A stretch of DNA of 64,000 bases from an uncultured bacterium (GCA_937943575.1 CALEAV010000002.1:1-64000); one strand, 5' to 3'. Positions 8,475 to 60,208 are shown, counted from the first letter of the stretch. The notes: generated by a model from the sequence alone, not told the origin. Numbers and translations are program-made.

Positions 8475-9194
8475 ATGACCGGCCTGCCGTGGACGGAGAT
8501 CGTCTATCCGGCCCTCACCTTTGTGCTGCTGACCGGCTATCATCTCTACTGGGCCTGGCAGGTGCGCCGGGCGCCGCTCATCACCTATCTCGGGGTCACC
8601 CGCCACCTGCGCTTCATGTGGGTGGAGTCCGTCATACGGGAGCGCCGGGACATCCTGTCGGTGCAGACCCTGCGCAACTGGGTCATGGCCGCCAGCTTCC
8701 TCGCCTCCACCGCCATGCTCATCGGGCTGGGGCTGCTGAGCTTTCTCTTCCGGGCCGAGCTGCTGGCTGAGCTCAACTTTGAGCTCACCGCCATCTTCAC
8801 CCGGGTGCAGACCCTGTTCCTGGCCAAGCTCATGCTCCTGAGCCTGCATTTTTTCTTTGCCTTTTTCAGCTTCACCCTCTCCATCCGTTATCTCAACCAG
8901 GTGAATTTTCTCATCAATGTGCCGGCCGCCTGCGACCCGGTCCTCACCCCCGGCTTCATCGCCCACACCCTGGACCTGGGCATGCTGCACTACACCTTGG
9001 GGATGCGGGCCTACTACCTGGCGGTGCCGGTGGCCCTGTGGCTCTTCGGCCCGTTGTGGATGTTTCTGGGCGCCCTGGTGCTGACGGTGGTGCTGTATCA
9101 CCTGGACCACTGCTGCTCCCTGGATTACTCCACCGCCACCTGTCAGGTGCCCGGCGGGGCTCAGGAAGGGGGCTGCCGGGAAGCAGGCGGTTGA
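8475..9194 (+). CDS. DUF599-family integral membrane protein
   Basis: 239 aa with about four to five membrane helices (residues 8-26, 75-100, 115-150, 180-230). It carries the N-terminal YHLYWAWQVRRAPLITYLGVTRHLRFMWVE pattern, with the conserved Tyr-His and Arg/Trp residues, characteristic of the DUF599 family, whose function is unknown. The C-terminal tail is Cys-rich (HCCSLDYSTATC and GGCRE). AGGAGG sits 5 nt before the ATG. It ends just as the transketolase promoter begins, so the two genes are probably separate units. Confidence 0.8.
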   Translation: MTGLPWTEIVYPALTFVLLTGYHLYWAWQVRRAPLITYLGVTRHLRFMWVESVIRERRDILSVQTLRNWVMAASFLASTAMLIGLGLLSFLFRAELLAELNFELTAIFTRVQTLFLAKLMLLSLHFFFAFFSFTLSIRYLNQVNFLINVPAACDPVLTPGFIAHTLDLGMLHYTLGMRAYYLAVPVALWLFGPLWMFLGALVLTVVLYHLDHCCSLDYSTATCQVPGGAQEGGCREAGG

Positions 9195-30287: not shown

Positions 30288-30545
30288 TCAGCCGTAGAGC
30301 CGCACCGGCGGATGCACCGGGGTGAGCTCCCCCTCGGTGGGTTTGGCCACCAGGAGCTGGATGCGGCCGAAACCCTGGGTGAGGAGGAAATGCCAGGCCT
30401 CCTGGACGTCATAAAACCCCTCGCCGCCGCCCACCACCTCCACCCGGTCGGCCGCCAGCCCCAGCTCCCGGCAGCGGGCCGCCACATCCAAACCCGGGGG
30501 CACGTCCGCCCCGCCCACCAGATAGACAATGACTCCGCTTTTCAT
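30288..30545 (-). CDS. Small protein coupled to cbiK
   Basis: 85 aa, not recognised. Soluble, alpha/beta in appearance: MKSGVIVYLVGGADVPPGLDVAARC, then RVEVVGGGEGFYDVQEAWHFLLTQG and QLLVAKPTEGELTP. The ATG overlaps the cbiK stop by four bases (ATGA), so it is translated with the riboswitch-controlled chelatase and probably functions with cobalt or corrinoid metabolism; inference from context. No signal peptide, in contrast to CbiK. Confidence 0.65.
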   Translation of the reverse strand: MKSGVIVYLVGGADVPPGLDVAARCRELGLAADRVEVVGGGEGFYDVQEAWHFLLTQGFGRIQLLVAKPTEGELTPVHPPVRLYG

Positions 30546-31414
30546 TTTTTCCCCTCCACCTCCCTGAGCGCCTGGGCCAGATGGTCCAGGAAGAGGTCCA
30601 CAATGCCGTCGACATAACCCAAACCGGTGGTCACTCCCTCAATCTGGTAAGCCTTGTGCTTGAGGAGCTGGTTCTTCCAGCTGTCGGGCTCCTCCCCCAG
30701 AAGGTCGTTCTGGACGTGGTCCCCGGCCACAAACATGAAGGGCATGAGCACGATCTTTTGGGGGTTGGCCTTCTTCACCGCCACGAAGGCCTCCTTGGCT
30801 TCGGGTTTGCCCTCCACCGAGGCCAGAAAGGCATGGGGGTAGCGGGAGTGCAGGAGCCGGGCGAAGCTCACATAGGCCTTCTCCCCCGGGGGGACCGGGC
30901 TGCCATGGGCCATGAGGAGCACCGCCGTCTTGCCGTCCTGAGGCGGGAAGGTGGCGGCCACTGCCTTCAGGGCGCGTTCTTTGTCCTGCTCACTGCTAAG
31001 CAGCGGCTTGCCCAGGGCCGCCTTCAGCCCCGGTATTTCCCGGACGACGGAGACCACCTTCTTCTCCCACTCCTCCCCGGGCACGATGTGCAGGGACTGG
31101 ATGGCCACCCTGCTGTGCCCCTGGGCTTTGAGGTCCCGGAGCACGGTGCCCAGATCCTTGAGCTCCCGGCCCTGCTCCTTGGCCACCTTGTGGCGCACCT
31201 TGTGAGAGGTGAAGGCCCAGCGCACCTCATACCCGGGGAAGCGCTCCCGCACCTTCTTCTCGAAATGGTCATAGGTGGCGAAGGCCTCGGTGGTGGTCCC
31301 GAAGGCGGTGAGCACGATGACGGGTCTGTCCGCCGCGTCCACCTGGGCGGCCGCCAAAAGCGCCAGCACGGCCGCCGCCTGCACCAGATGCCGGGTCCTG
31401 CTTTTCTGCCCCAT
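30542..31414 (-). CDS. cbiK: Periplasmic sirohydrochlorin cobaltochelatase (CbiK type)
   Basis: 290 aa. Inserts Co2+ (or Fe2+) into sirohydrochlorin in anaerobic cobalamin synthesis. From ATG 31414 the protein has a signal peptide (basic QKSRTR, hydrophobic 10-22, VDA-A cleavage near 28), as in the periplasmic CbiK variant of Desulfovibrio. Family motifs: ltAFGTTTEAFATYDH, WAFTSHKVRHK, VAIQSLHIVPGEE, LLMAHGSPVPPGEKAYV (metal-binding His) and FMFVAGDHVQNDLLGEEPDSWK (second His). An upstream in-frame extension to 31501 would read through the terminator hairpin and is rejected. It is controlled by a cobalamin riboswitch and intrinsic terminator. Confidence 0.93.
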   Translation of the reverse strand: MGQKSRTRHLVQAAAVLALLAAAQVDAADRPVIVLTAFGTTTEAFATYDHFEKKVRERFPGYEVRWAFTSHKVRHKVAKEQGRELKDLGTVLRDLKAQGHSRVAIQSLHIVPGEEWEKKVVSVVREIPGLKAALGKPLLSSEQDKERALKAVAATFPPQDGKTAVLLMAHGSPVPPGEKAYVSFARLLHSRYPHAFLASVEGKPEAKEAFVAVKKANPQKIVLMPFMFVAGDHVQNDLLGEEPDSWKNQLLKHKAYQIEGVTTGLGYVDGIVDLFLDHLAQALREVEGKK

Positions 31415-31432
31415 CCTGTCCCCCTTAACCGG

Positions 31433-31472
31433 AAATAAAAAAATCCTTAAGCCAGCAAATGACTTAAGGATT
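31433..31472 (-). terminator. Intrinsic terminator of the cobalamin riboswitch
   Basis: On the minus strand AATCCTTAAG (31472-31463), 11-nt loop, CTTAAGGATT (31451-31442), then a run of T interrupted by one A (31441-31433). Perfect 10-bp stem plus U tract, 70 nt after the aptamer and 19 nt before the cbiK ATG: transcription attenuation platform. Confidence 0.88.
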
Positions 31473-31540
31473 GCACCCAGCTTCTTGGTCCTTAAATTCA
31501 TGCCGGGCGTCCACTATACCGCGTAGCGACGCCGGCCGGT

Positions 31541-31701
31541 GTTCGGGCAGGTCTTCTGACTCCCGGATCCTCCTCCCCCTGCGCCTTCCCATCCCCTGAA
31601 GGTGGACAGTGGCATGCTGCAGGGTTCGTCCCCGGTCACAGCGGCGGGACCGTGCCGGACTTGCACCGGCTTCCCTATTATGCCCTATGTGGGCACCCGA
31701 A
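31541..31701 (-). promoter_or_regulatory. Cobalamin (B12) riboswitch
   Basis: Minus strand shows the class hallmarks: closing stem GTTCGGG (31701-31695) / CCCGAAC (31547-31541), AGGGAAGCCGGTGCAAGTCC core with CGGCACGGTCCCGCCGCTGTGA, and the B12 box GCCACTG (31613-31607), then GGGAGTCAGAAGACC before the closing strand. With the downstream terminator it should lower cbiK transcription when cobalamin is plentiful. Confidence 0.93.
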
Positions 31702-31713
31702 CGATGTGACACC

Positions 31714-31742
31714 ACAATATCTGGAGTGTGGCCCCTTGTCAA
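31714..31742 (-). promoter_or_regulatory. Sigma70-type promoter of the riboswitch-cbiK transcript
   Basis: TTGACA (31742-31737), 17-nt spacer, TATTGT (31719-31714) on the minus strand; the start point would fall at about 31707, just before the aptamer. Confidence 0.75.
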
Positions 31743-55653: not shown

Positions 55654-57093
55654 ATGAGCGAGGCGGTGGATTCCCGGCCCCTGACCTGGGCCGACGGGCT
55701 CAAGCTGGAAAACGTGGGCCGCGAAGTGCGCGTGCCGGCGGGGACCCTGGTGGTCAAACAGGGGGAGCCGCCCCAGTGCTTCTACGTGGTGGTCAGCGGC
55801 CGCCTGGAGGTCTTCCGGGAGACCGCCGAGGGCATCCGCACCCACCTCACCGACCTGGGGCCGGGGGATTATTTCGGGGAGGTGGCCCTGGTCACCGGTC
55901 AGCCCCGCACCGCCTCGGTGGCCGCCCGGGAGGACGCGGTGCTCCTGGAGATCACCAAGGACGAGTTCGACCACGTCCTGGACCACAACCCCCGGCTGGC
56001 CCGGCACATCATCCAGCAGCTCAGCCATTGGCTGGTGCAGGGCGACGGCCGCCTGGAGCGGGAGGTGGTGCATCAGGCCAAGCTGAGGCAGATCTCCTGG
56101 TTCGACTACCTCCTCCTGCTGGGCCTGAGCCTGGTGCTGGCGCTGGTCTTCAATACCTACAACGACAACCAGATCCCCCTGGTGCACGGCTGGGGGGAGA
56201 AGCTTCAGATCACGGAGATCAGCCCCACCCGGGCCCTGGAGCTGCACCGCCGCCAGGCGGCGGTCTTTGTGGACGCCCGCAAGGCCAACTTCTTTGACCA
56301 GCGCCACATTCAGGGGGCCGTGAATCTGCCGCGCCTCTATTTTGACCTCCAGTACCCCATGTTCCGCTTCATTCTGGAGCAGATGGGCTGGCAGGACAAA
56401 CCCCTCATCGTCTACGGGGGGGGCTTCAGCCGCCGCTTCGACCACGAGCTGGCAAACCTGCTCCAGGAAAAGGACCATGGCCAGGTCCTGGTGCTGGGGG
56501 GGCACTACGCCGCCTGGGAGAAGCTCTTCCCGGTGACGGAGAAGGCGGCGGCGCCGCCCCCGGCCATGCCCCTGGGGATTCCGGGGCTCATCGAGTGGCT
56601 GCCGGTGGGCTTTCTGGTCCTGCTGCTCATTCCGCCGGTCCGGCGCAGCCCCCACCTGGCCATGGCCGGCCGCCTGGTCCTGGGGGTGATCTTCATCCAG
56701 TTCGCCCTGAGCAAGATCATGCGCCCCGGGGTCTTTGCCCTCAACGTGGTGGAGTACGGCCTCATGCCGCCCTGGGGGGTGAATCTGTGGGCCCTGTTTC
56801 TGCCCTGGGCGGAGCTGGTCTGCGGGCTCTTTCTCATTCTGGGCATCCGCACCCGGGCGGCGGCCACCCTCATCGGCGGGATGAACCTGATTTTCATCAT
56901 CGGCCTGGTGAACGCCCTGCTCATGGGCCTCCCCATCAACTGCGGCTGCGTGGGGGAGGTGGGGGAGCCCGTCAACTGGTGGAAGGTGACCAAAAACGCC
57001 GCCATGCTCCTCATGGCCGGACAGATTTATCTCTATGACCGTTTCCTGGTCCTGGACCGGGGCGGCTTCATCTGGCGGGAACGGGAGATATGA
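55654..57093 (+). CDS. Cyclic-nucleotide-binding / rhodanese-like / MauE(DoxX) membrane fusion
   Basis: 479 aa. Residues ~15-135: cNMP-binding jelly roll (VPAGTLVVKQGEPPQCFYVVVSGRLEVF, PGDYFGEVALVTGQPRTASVAA). ~150-168: one helix. ~180-300: rhodanese-like fold (AVFVDARKANFFDQRHIQGAVNLPR, LIVYGGGFSRRFDHELAN); the active-site Cys position is replaced (YGGGFSRR), so sulfur transfer is not expected. ~310-470: four-helix MauE/DoxX-type domain with NCGCVGEVGEP (paired Cys in CGC, as in MauE). MauE is tied to disulfide formation in methylamine dehydrogenase maturation. Head of an operon ending with the Sec glutaredoxin-like gene; its stop overlaps the next ATG by 4 nt. Confidence 0.85.
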   Translation: MSEAVDSRPLTWADGLKLENVGREVRVPAGTLVVKQGEPPQCFYVVVSGRLEVFRETAEGIRTHLTDLGPGDYFGEVALVTGQPRTASVAAREDAVLLEITKDEFDHVLDHNPRLARHIIQQLSHWLVQGDGRLEREVVHQAKLRQISWFDYLLLLGLSLVLALVFNTYNDNQIPLVHGWGEKLQITEISPTRALELHRRQAAVFVDARKANFFDQRHIQGAVNLPRLYFDLQYPMFRFILEQMGWQDKPLIVYGGGFSRRFDHELANLLQEKDHGQVLVLGGHYAAWEKLFPVTEKAAAPPPAMPLGIPGLIEWLPVGFLVLLLIPPVRRSPHLAMAGRLVLGVIFIQFALSKIMRPGVFALNVVEYGLMPPWGVNLWALFLPWAELVCGLFLILGIRTRAAATLIGGMNLIFIIGLVNALLMGLPINCGCVGEVGEPVNWWKVTKNAAMLLMAGQIYLYDRFLVLDRGGFIWREREI

Positions 57094-57467
57094 CTTACCG
57101 GACGGTGCCCTGGGCTCTGGCGCTCTGGGCGTTGGTCTTTGCGGCCGGCCTGGGATGCGGGGAGGCCCGGGCCCCCTTTGCCGGCACCTATCGCTCCGAG
57201 CTGCCTTACGGCGGCAGGGGGCATGTGGAGCTGACCCTGAAGGAAGACGGCGAGGGGCTGTGGAAATGGGAGGAGGTCTCCCTGAGGTTCAAGTGGCGGG
57301 TGGACAAGGGGCAGATCTGGCTCTATACCCGGGAGGGGGGGATCATCATCGCCACCCCCAGTGACGAGGGCCGCCGCCTCAACCTGGACATGAGCGGCTC
57401 CTGGCACCCCAGCTGCCCGGTGGAGCACTGCCTTACTTTTCAGCGAGTGACGGGAGGTGCCCGATGA
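57090..57467 (+). CDS. Small predicted lipoprotein
   Basis: 125 aa. Signal with lipobox-like FAAGLGC (C23) and a compact beta-rich mature domain GTYRSELPYGGRGHVELTLKEDGEGLWKWEEVSLRFKW...CLTFQRV. Two more Cys near the end (SCPVEHC). Function unrecognised. Overlaps the upstream stop (ATGA) and the downstream ATG by four bases. Confidence 0.7.
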   Translation: MTYRTVPWALALWALVFAAGLGCGEARAPFAGTYRSELPYGGRGHVELTLKEDGEGLWKWEEVSLRFKWRVDKGQIWLYTREGGIIIATPSDEGRRLNLDMSGSWHPSCPVEHCLTFQRVTGGAR

Positions 57468-58681
57468 GGCCTCAGTGGCGTCTGGGCCTGGTGGCCGTGG
57501 CCCTGACGGGGCTCCTCGGCCAGCCCGTCCCGGGACAGGCGGCGCCGACCCGGCAGGCGGTGGAGGTGCGCCAGGTGGGGCTCAGCCGGGTGGGCGGCCA
57601 GACCCTCCTCACCGTGGTGTTGACCCGTCCGGCCGCCCCCCGCATCACCCCGGAGGACCGGGGTGGCCAGCCCCGGCTGGTGGTGGAATTCCCCCAGGCC
57701 CGGGCCAGGCGCCTGCCAGGCACTCTGGCGGGGGATGAGGTTTTGGTCTCGAGGGTCCTGACCCGGGTGGGGCCTGGCGGCAGCGGGGTGACCATCACCC
57801 TGGAGCTGGTGCCGGACCGGCCCTACACCTGGTGGCGCCAGTCCCGGCCCGGGAGCGGCCAGCAGGCCCTGTTCGTGGTGGGCCTGCGCCCGGCCGGGGC
57901 AACCCCGGCCCCGCCCACCGCCCGCCCGGCGCCCCTGGTGCCGCCCCCGCCCCCGGCGCCGCACCGGGCCCAGATGGCGCCGCTGCCGGAGGAGCCGGAG
58001 GAGCTGGAGGAGGAACCCCCCGCGGGCCGGGAATGGCAGGCGCCACCGCCCTCCGCTTATCCCGGGAGCCCCCGGGAGCGGGCCCGGGGGGATTTTGCCG
58101 AACTGCGCCGCCTGGCGCCCCAGGGGCAGGGGGTCTGGCAGTACCTGGAGAGGAGCGGCTGGCGGGTGAGCAGCGTCAAGGATTATGACCGCCCCGGGGT
58201 GCGGGCCAGCCGGGCCTTCACCCTCACTCACCCCTCCTACCCCGAGGTGGAGGTGAATGTGGTGCATCTGCCGGGGACTGCCGCCGGCACCCCCAACATC
58301 ACCTTGCTGGATCTGTCCTTCAACCGGCTTACCAGCGCCCCGGCGGTGAAGTACCGGGAGATGCGCACCTGGAGCTTCGCCAAAATCCGGCAGCAGTTTG
58401 AGGACATCGGGGATTTCTTCGACGACGCCCTCAAGCCCCTGCGGGTGGACCTCCGGAAAGAGTGCCAGAGCCTGGCGCTGCGCTACGCCCCCCTCATCCA
58501 GGAGTTTGTCCGCCAGGTGGTGCCCCGGGATCCCAGGGCGCCGGAGACCGTCATGAACCACATCAAGGCCAAGGTGAGCCTTCGGTTTGAGGGGGTGCAA
58601 TATACCATCAGCGAAGAGCCGCTCCTCATCCTCAACCTGGTGGACTTTCTCTACCTGAGGACCTATTACGTGGGCGGCTGA
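57464..58681 (+). CDS. AMIN-domain exported protein
   Basis: 405 aa with signal peptide (1-27, GQAAPT). An AMIN-like beta domain (about 33-130, LTVVLTRPAAPRITPEDRGGQPRLVVEFPQARAR), a Pro-rich linker (about 145-200), and a C-terminal domain of about 200 residues (KYREMRTWSFAKIRQQFEDIGDFFDDALKPLRVDL) that I do not recognise. AMIN domains target periplasmic proteins to the envelope. Located 10 nt before the Sec glutaredoxin-like ATG; same operon. Confidence 0.72.
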   Translation: MRPQWRLGLVAVALTGLLGQPVPGQAAPTRQAVEVRQVGLSRVGGQTLLTVVLTRPAAPRITPEDRGGQPRLVVEFPQARARRLPGTLAGDEVLVSRVLTRVGPGGSGVTITLELVPDRPYTWWRQSRPGSGQQALFVVGLRPAGATPAPPTARPAPLVPPPPPAPHRAQMAPLPEEPEELEEEPPAGREWQAPPPSAYPGSPRERARGDFAELRRLAPQGQGVWQYLERSGWRVSSVKDYDRPGVRASRAFTLTHPSYPEVEVNVVHLPGTAAGTPNITLLDLSFNRLTSAPAVKYREMRTWSFAKIRQQFEDIGDFFDDALKPLRVDLRKECQSLALRYAPLIQEFVRQVVPRDPRAPETVMNHIKAKVSLRFEGVQYTISEEPLLILNLVDFLYLRTYYVGG

Positions 58682-58691
58682 GGAGGATGAG

Positions 58692-58907
58692 ATGGCGAAG
58701 GAGATCGTGATCTACGGCAAGGCCAGTTGACCCTTCACCCTGCGGGCCCGGGAGGCCAAGACGCAGGCGGGCTATCAGGTGGATTATCGGGACGTCAAGG
58801 AGGAGCCCAAATATCTGGAGGAGATGCTGCGCCTCAGCCGGGGGGTGCGCAAGGTGCCGGTCCTGGTGGAGGGCGGCCAGGTGAGCATCGGCTTCGGGGG
58901 CACCTGA
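58692..58907 (+). CDS. Selenocysteine glutaredoxin-like protein (UXX-type), UGA = Sec13
   Basis: 71 aa thioredoxin-fold redox protein. From ATG 58692 (AGGAGG 6 nt upstream): MAKEIVIYGKAS then TGA (58728-58730) then PFTLRAREAKTQAG, running on to TGA 58905-58907. The UGA sits where glutaredoxins have the first Cys of the active site: Sec-Pro-Phe-Thr after YGKAS, followed by the family's KVPVLVEGGQVSIGFGG (cis-Pro VP, and GxxxxGFGG tail). This fits the UXX-type glutaredoxin-like selenoprotein group. A SECIS-like hairpin starts 9 nt after the UGA. Resolving-Cys is absent (Thr), so a glutathione or partner thiol is needed. Read as normal code, the gene is missed. Confidence 0.88.
58739..58767 (+). 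promoter_or_regulatory. Bacterial SECIS element in the Sec glutaredoxin-like gene
   Basis: CCTGCG (58739-58744) / CGCAGG (58762-58767) with inner GGCC (58745-58748) / GGCC (58754-58757), loop CGGGA and a four-base 3' bulge AAGA. The loop begins 18 nt after the UGA, nearly the same distance as in selD. Confidence 0.65.
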
Positions 58908-59839
58908 GGGGTGTAAGGAGGGCCCCCTGGGAGCGGGCTCGGTGGGGGCGGGGCCGGCCGGCAGCGGCGGGTCCCGCCCCTTTTTGCTGTCTTGGGCTCA
59001 GGCCTCCCCGGCACCGGTCCCGGGTGAAAAATCTCCCACTTTTTTCATTTCGGGCCCCCCACGGCGCCTCGTCCTTGCCACCGCCGGGCGGTTTGGATGG
59101 CTAATCCATGAGAATTGCGTTTAATTTTTCCCGGGCCGGGGGCGGGGGGCAGGGCGGGCCGCCTCTCTGATCCTTACCCCACTCCTGCGGCCAACTCCGG
59201 CAGATTTTTCCACTTAGGCGCCTTATTCAGCTTGAAATCAGCATGAAAATGGTTAATTTGTCCCACTTCCTTCAAAAAGGAGGGAGGTTTTTCTTTATAT
59301 AATCTATTAAGATAATGAAATTATTAGATTTTATACATTCCCAGGGGTTTTGTCAGTGAAAAAGGTTTTATGGCTTTTTTTTATCCCACTTTATCCGATT
59401 TTTTTCCTGGTATTTCTCTTTTTTAATCCACTTTATCGGTGATTTTCCCCTCTTCCCCAAGCTTTCCCCTTCTTGTTAATTTGGGCACAATAGCAATTAT
59501 AAAGAATTTACCAAATATTTCAAGTAATTATAAATTTTTTGAAAAAAATTTCTTGACAGCCTCTCCGCCGTGGTTTACTAATCAGAGCCATCAGACAGCC
59601 ACCGACAGACATTCGAACCTCAACTCCCACGGGATGGCGGTGACAGCCGGTTGAGGCTGGGTCCCCACCTCTCCTCTTCTCCCGAACCCAGATACGTACC
59701 GGGAGGGGACCCGGGCTGCACTTTGGGGGAGCCCAAAACCCGGCTGCCAACCAGGGCAAGGAGGCCCGGGGCTCCCCGGCAGTCACGCCCGCCGCGTCCC
59801 CCATCCTGCCGACATCCAGCAGCGACAAGAGAGGCGATC
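58908..59839. other. Long intergenic region with AT-rich core
   Basis: About 930 nt without a convincing gene. 59200-59570 is strikingly AT-rich against GC-rich surroundings. It contains two copies of CCACTTTATC[C/G]G at 59386-59397 and 59428-59439 (42 nt apart) and TTGACA at 59553-59558 with a weak -10 (TACTAA at 17 nt). It may be a regulatory or protein-binding region for the 3D-domain gene at 59840. Confidence 0.4.
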
Positions 59840-60208
59840 ATGAAAAAAACGGCGATCCTGTGCCTGGTGTCTGTGGGGATGTTCTTCTTCCCCCGCCCCA
59901 CCCTCAGCGTCAGTATGGCCATTGTCACGGTCACCGCCTACTCCTACAACGGCGGCGCCTCCCCTCACGGGATCACGGCCTCCGGCAAAAGGGTGAAAGA
60001 GGGCATGGTGGCGGTGAGCCGGGATGTGGAGCGCACCCTCAATCTGGCCTTCGGCGACCGGGTGCTGCTCCACGGGCTGGGGGTCTATGAATACCAGGAC
60101 CGCATGGCCTCCCGCATGCGCAAGAAGGTGGATGTCTTCCTGAACAGCGACCGGAAGGCCCGCCGTTTCGGGGTGAAGCGGCAGGTGGTCCTGGTCAAGC
60201 TGGTGTGA
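59840..60208 (+). CDS. 3D (Asp-Asp-Asp) domain protein, exported
   Basis: 122 aa. Signal peptide (1-25, SVS), then the 3D/RlpA-like double-psi beta-barrel: VTAYSYNGGASPHGITASGKRVKEGMVAVSRDVERTLNLAFGDRVLLHGLGVYEYQDRMASRMRKKVDVFLNS, with the conserved Asp residues of this lytic-transglycosylase-like fold. Cell-wall associated. It lies behind the AT-rich region, convergent with efp 11 nt away. Confidence 0.82.
   Translation: MKKTAILCLVSVGMFFFPRPTLSVSMAIVTVTAYSYNGGASPHGITASGKRVKEGMVAVSRDVERTLNLAFGDRVLLHGLGVYEYQDRMASRMRKKVDVFLNSDRKARRFGVKRQVVLVKLV

Follow-up and report, generated by a model that had tools for sequence, protein, structure and literature searches.

A four-gene operon conserved in Desulfobaccales encodes a membrane protein combining a cyclic-nucleotide-binding (cNMP) domain, a Cys-less rhodanese domain and a MauE domain, followed by a lipoprotein, an exported AMIN-type protein, and a glutaredoxin-like protein with two selenocysteine (Sec) residues. 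With slightly less than even confidence, we propose that the operon specifies a cNMP-sensing inner-membrane module for periplasmic thiol redox together with a co-expressed, lineage-specific cytosolic double-selenol protein. It lies in a stretch of 64,000 nucleotides from an uncultured bacterium (CALEAV010000002.1:1-64000, hereafter the window), whose genome falls, by its named relatives, among Desulfobaccales-type MAGs. All parts of the operon belong to known families; their combination appears to be new and specific to Desulfobaccales (one group of sediment bacteria), and the function is a proposal. The four genes are on the plus strand at 55654-58916. The initial annotation had described a chain formed by ATGA overlaps and a 10-nt gap, and the gene coordinates bear this out: gene 1 (55654-57093) and gene 2 (57090-57467) overlap by ATGA, as do gene 2 and gene 3 (57464-58681), and 10 nt separate the end of gene 3 (58681) from the start of gene 4 (58692). 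The operon end had been placed wrongly at 58907; the TGA there is the second Sec codon, and the frame continues to 58916. The features are as follows, with their basis in parentheses.

55654-57093, plus strand: gene 1, fusion of cNMP-binding domain, transmembrane (TM) helix, Cys-less rhodanese, TM helix and MauE, 479 aa (Pfam, homologue alignment)
55726-55989, plus strand: cNMP-binding domain, signature FGEVAL...PRTASV, probably cytosolic (Pfam, alignment, fold match)
56227-56523, plus strand: rhodanese-like domain without catalytic Cys (YGGxxSRR), probably periplasmic (Pfam, alignment)
56575-56631, plus strand: extra TM helix between rhodanese and MauE, aa 308-326 (locus comparison)
56656-57021, plus strand: MauE domain (Pfam, 2.5e-21)
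56941-56949, plus strand: CGC, aa 430-432, invariant, probably periplasmic (alignment of homologues)
57090-57467, plus strand: gene 2, lipoprotein, predicted small β barrel, C-terminal CPVEHC (sequence, alignment, predicted structure)
57464-58681, plus strand: gene 3, exported AMIN-type protein with an uncharacterised C-terminal domain (sequence, alignment, profile matches in relatives)
58692-58916, plus strand: gene 4, a 74-aa member of UXX-star selenoprotein family 1 carrying Sec at positions 13 and 72 (U13, U72); stop codon TAA at 58914-58916 (NF041114 match, codon conservation)
58728-58730, plus strand: TGA for Sec13 (UPFT, at the position of the glutaredoxin catalytic Cys; codon conservation)
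58745-58757, plus strand: hairpin 3' of Sec13, candidate SECIS (GGCC-CGGGA-GGCC; codon conservation)
58905-58907, plus strand: TGA for Sec72 (GGT-U-G-V-stop; codon conservation)
58921-58939, plus strand: hairpin region 3' of Sec72, candidate SECIS (covariation in relatives)

An AT-rich stretch of the window without a recognised gene (59200-59600) separates the operon from a 3D-domain-like gene (59840-60208), which is conserved at this downstream position in the nearest family. A Cobalamin riboswitch (125 bits) is located at 31529-31715 on the minus strand, and the gene downstream of it (30542-31501, minus strand) resembles a CbiK-like anaerobic cobaltochelatase, as assigned by eye.

Gene 1 matched the Pfam families cNMP_binding (1.6e-25, aa 25-112), Rhodanese (8.4e-10, aa 192-290), and MauE (PF07291; 2.5e-21, aa 335-456; 76.7 bits against a cut-off of 27). 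Together with the alignment, these matches confirm the composition given in the initial annotation, which had also noted the missing rhodanese Cys and the CGC of the MauE domain. In the cNMP domain, G75, E76, A78, R85, A87, and V89 are invariant in the homologue alignment; the phosphate-binding motif is of the FGExAL...PR[ST]ASV type, with R85 invariant in 23 homologues. The top structural match of the fold was Thermus CAP (Z 16.7 over 124 residues, rmsd 2.6). Three class III cyclases are encoded in the window's genome. The rhodanese loop reads YGGxxSRR or YGRxxSxxY, and Gly replaces the catalytic Cys in all homologues read; lacking the residue expected of an active sulfurtransferase, the domain probably retains the fold only. 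The MauE CGC is invariant in homologues, so that the conservation of the Cys pair, on which the redox proposal had been made to depend, holds. The AlphaFold model of gene 1 was of moderate quality (pLDDT 70.7, pTM 0.50), with low confidence around the CGC, where it is too weak to use. Structural searches with the fusion were dominated by cNMP-domain matches and were uninformative on MauE. An in-frame TGA in the fusion gene of two genomes (G027 and G028) was considered as a Sec form and rejected; it is the normal stop of a separate cNMP-rhodanese gene, and MauE starts just after it.

The frame of gene 4 from 58692 reads MAKEIVIYGKAS-U-PFTLRAREAK...GFGGT-U-GV-stop (TAA). Its match to NF041114 (UXX-star selenoprotein family 1; 6.5e-30, 103.2 bits, cut-off 72) agrees with the earlier description as a glutaredoxin-like Sec protein. 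In place of the single catalytic residue then attributed to it, the protein has two selenols, U13 and U72. The model has 70 positions ending in U-x-x, and the family name describes the Sec-x-x-stop tail, which gene 4 possesses (TGA at 58905-58907, G, V, TAA). Of the 22 complete copies from the order, all carry TGA at codon 72; at codon 13, 21 have TGA and one has TGC. The gene 4 proteins in the order differ by up to about 45%. At 9013-9015 of one locus (L077, genome G007), Cys (TGC) takes the place of Sec13, with the hairpin behind it and Sec72 kept. By alignment with glutaredoxins, Sec13 would occupy the catalytic position and Sec72 would lie in the tail near the substrate groove, and the two residues could be joined as a diselenide or act together as a chelator of a soft metal. 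A 2026 review lists the family as 'distant Grx-like protein 1' with two Sec (PMC13188914). The family is catalogued, and no description of the function of UXX-star selenoproteins was found in the literature. One reading makes the gene 4 selenols chelators of Hg, As, Cu or a similar element, the operon being an envelope response to soft-metal stress. This would accord with the suggestion of the same review that Sec in UXX-star proteins may act as metal ligands (PMC13188914), as well as with the conservation of the two selenols together in most copies. However, no metal transporter, regulator, or resistance gene was recognised beside the operon. We know of no metal role for MauE or cNMP domains, and we regard metal handling as unlikely.

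The window's genome encodes SelB (351.9 bits, cut-off 242) and tRNA-Sec (73.8 bits, cut-off 47). Bacterial SECIS elements sit just 3' of the UGA (PMC9312934), and both hairpins fit this placement as candidate elements. In the first, the codons for A19-R20-E21-A22 are GCC CGG GAG GCC in nearly all copies. They show almost no synonymous change (mean entropy 0.11 versus 1.07 bits), a scarcity matched by only 9 of 27,405 sets of four conserved codons, and the single change in the hairpin (GCT in the genus g11) is compensated by a G-to-A change across the stem. The folding z-score of this hairpin in isolation was uninformative (z +0.76), and conservation was used instead. The stem after Sec72 has 7 bp and is 90% paired in relatives within the order, where five pairs show double changes; none of 500 shuffles reached its covariation score. 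This stem is strong in the relatives but imperfect in the window copy. Both Sec residues are supported by the decoding machinery, SelB and tRNA-Sec, and by two hairpins placed like SECIS elements.

The arrangement of these proteins about the membrane was deduced from helix counts and charge. Separate MauE proteins have a basic N-terminus, four helices, and the CGC after the third helix, which places the CGC probably in the periplasm. The fusion carries one helix more than the separate genes (aa 308-326), joining the rhodanese and MauE halves, and this helix would be what both halves need to keep their topology. It is absent in most loci with separate genes and is present N-terminally in the separate MauE of one locus (L094 2892-3470, reverse strand, genome G011). 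This unfused MauE is an apparent intermediate toward the fusion. The gene 4 product has no signal peptide, and the CGC and the Sec protein would thus be located on opposite sides, in the periplasm and the cytosol, respectively. The initial annotation had suggested that the Sec protein reduces the CGC directly, a selenothiol feeding the envelope redox module. The shared operon, the invariance of the CGC, and a glutaredoxin fold in which Sec takes the catalytic place would suit this role, but a direct electron feed is improbable because the predicted compartments are opposite. Moreover, the CGC is equally invariant in genomes without the Sec gene, and that gene is absent from the core loci examined outside the order and from Desulfobacca-like genomes that keep SelB. 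We regard direct reduction as highly improbable. A cNMP-gated relay, in which one membrane fusion protein links cytosolic diselenol chemistry to the periplasmic thiol pair, also seems unlikely; if true, it would give anaerobes a transmembrane redox device under the control of a second messenger.

Besides its lipobox Cys, gene 2 carries a pair of Cys residues at the C-terminus. The earlier description as a Cys-containing lipoprotein stands for the window copy, but the pair is not universal: it is shared by the nearest family and the Desulfobacca-like genomes and is absent in g11 and outside the order. The pair showed no link to the Sec gene, as g10 has the pair without the Sec gene and g11 has the Sec gene without the pair. 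The structure model of gene 2 is a small β barrel (pLDDT 80), for which Foldseek returned no more than weak similarity to lipocalin-like proteins or YedD (best 4.5e-3, TM about 0.5). Pfam DUF3048_C was matched in 17 of 28 lipoprotein relatives (2.4e-5). For gene 3, 11 of 24 relatives support the AMIN assignment (best 3.5e-4), but the window copy alone does not. Neither the AMIN nor the lipoprotein alignment gave a usable result in sequence searches of the PDB. In one genome (L098, G026), gene 3 is split between two frames and there is no gene 4, with genes 1 and 2 intact.

The distribution of the genes was examined in 29 genomes of the order and, for loci outside it, in a phylum sample. Gene 1 was found in all 29 genomes of the order, in some at contig ends. 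Most of them have the fusion; in G011 and the genus g11, cNMP-rhodanese and MauE are two genes, as they are in all loci read outside the order. In the phylum sample, eight genomes outside the order have cNMP-TM-rhodanese and MauE as distinct genes, with the lipoprotein detected in six. The phylum-wide core, as read from these loci, is cNMP-TM-rhodanese, MauE, and the lipoprotein. The Sec gene is present in 23 of the 29 genomes, always directly after gene 3 and usually at about 20 nt. The genomes without it are G026, G021, whose contig ends there, and four Desulfobacca-like genomes, which retain genes 1-3 and SelB. Co-occurrence of the four families, proposed earlier as a check on the operon, is thus retained in most genomes of the order but lost outside it, where none of the examined core loci (eight genomes) has the Sec gene beside it.

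These patterns bear on whether gene 4 is functionally tied to the module at all. The Sec protein may instead be a passenger. In that case, the gene for a UXX-star protein of general use would have landed behind the module in the ancestor of Desulfobaccales and been kept there by synteny. Outside the order, UXX-star genes have varied neighbours, such as endonuclease III, NDK, and LOG-type genes (families by eye), and core genomes there are not enriched for the gene, which occurs elsewhere in two of eight versus 86 of 377 overall. The core also persists in the Desulfobacca-like genomes and G026 that lack the Sec gene. Synteny in the nearest family extends over the whole chromosomal stretch, and the glycosyltransferase, CrtC-like, 3D-domain, and EF-P neighbours (named by eye) are equally conserved; co-occurrence in that family is weak evidence for this reason. 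On the other hand, the four genes stay together in g11 although its flanks differ, and this one case speaks for a unit; in every genome that has the Sec gene, moreover, it comes directly after the AMIN gene. We give the passenger reading a sizeable minority chance, and it is nearly as likely as a functional tie of gene 4 to the module.

Further neighbours were noted at several loci. Outside the order, a gene for a cNMP-binding protein lies close upstream of UXX-star in two of 25 loci (L167 and L163), possibly by chance. In L181 (8637-10091, on the module's strand, genome G108), a class III cyclase-like gene (family by eye) is located about 50 nt downstream of the cNMP-rhodanese/MauE/lipoprotein set and is a possible source of ligand for the cNMP domain. 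In L180 (8691-12918, genome G348), genes for cytochrome b, Rieske, and multihaem cytochrome proteins (families by eye) directly follow the module, hinting at a respiratory link. In L185 (9511-10924, reverse strand, genome G156), MauE directly follows a gene for an exported protein that resembles thioredoxin and has CPHC; the cNMP-rhodanese gene lies elsewhere.

Here, we propose how the cNMP-sensing thiol-redox module may work. Genes 1 and 2, and possibly 3, would form an inner-membrane module whose CRP-like domain, with its predicted binding site, senses a cyclic nucleotide in the cytosol. The cNMP state would pass via the TM helix to the periplasmic, catalytically dead rhodanese, which may serve as a docking domain. 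In the four-helix MauE/DoxX-type unit, the periplasmic CGC would exchange electrons with extracytoplasmic thiol proteins, with the membrane quinone pool, by analogy, as the probable source. The gene 2 lipoprotein would be a periplasmic partner. The last gene of the operon in Desulfobaccales, gene 4, would provide a cytosolic protein of glutaredoxin fold with two selenols, probably expressed along with the module to serve the cytosolic side of a shared stress response and not as a direct donor to the CGC. The best-supported unit is the membrane module of cNMP sensor, docking domain, and MauE thiol pair; gene 4, which accompanies it in Desulfobaccales only, would be a putative addition. The initial idea of an envelope redox module with cNMP input accordingly remains plausible for its membrane part, as the CGC is invariant, the cNMP fold and phosphate signature are kept, and the core recurs in the phylum, but a supply of reductant from the Sec protein to the CGC is not supported.

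No description of the set of cNMP-TM-pseudorhodanese, MauE, and lipoprotein was found in the open-access literature, and it appears to be an undescribed envelope module present in several families of the phylum. Such a module would couple second-messenger signalling with periplasmic thiol redox. The placement of a UXX-star gene alongside a defined membrane partner, within an operon that is conserved, offers concrete candidate partners for this selenoprotein family.

Compared with known systems, gene 4 shares the UxxT active site, the Sec-x-x-stop tail, and the two Sec residues of UXX-star family 1 (NF041114); the protein itself is no different, and its operon setting alone is specific. SseA is a rhodanese-family protein. 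In Mycobacterium tuberculosis, a membrane-associated oxidoreductase complex is composed of DoxX (Rv3005c), SseA, and SodA, and SseA is a predicted thiol-oxidoreductase (PMC6930017). The likeness lies in a DoxX-type membrane protein working with SseA and is an analogy only. The rhodanese of gene 1 is Cys-less, fused, and probably periplasmic; gene 1 adds a cNMP domain, and no SodA was recognised in the operon or its nearest conserved flank. The MauE of methylamine utilisation, which acts with MauD, has a CGC and an assumed role in periplasmic disulfide chemistry. Gene 1 shares its Pfam domain and the CGC but stands outside a methylamine dehydrogenase context, has no MauD in the operon, and is fused to cNMP and rhodanese domains. 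With CRP-type cNMP-binding domains, gene 1 shares the fold, as reflected in the match to Thermus CAP, and the phosphate-binding residues; in gene 1, however, the cNMP domain is attached to a membrane helix and a predicted periplasmic domain, not to a DNA-binding domain.
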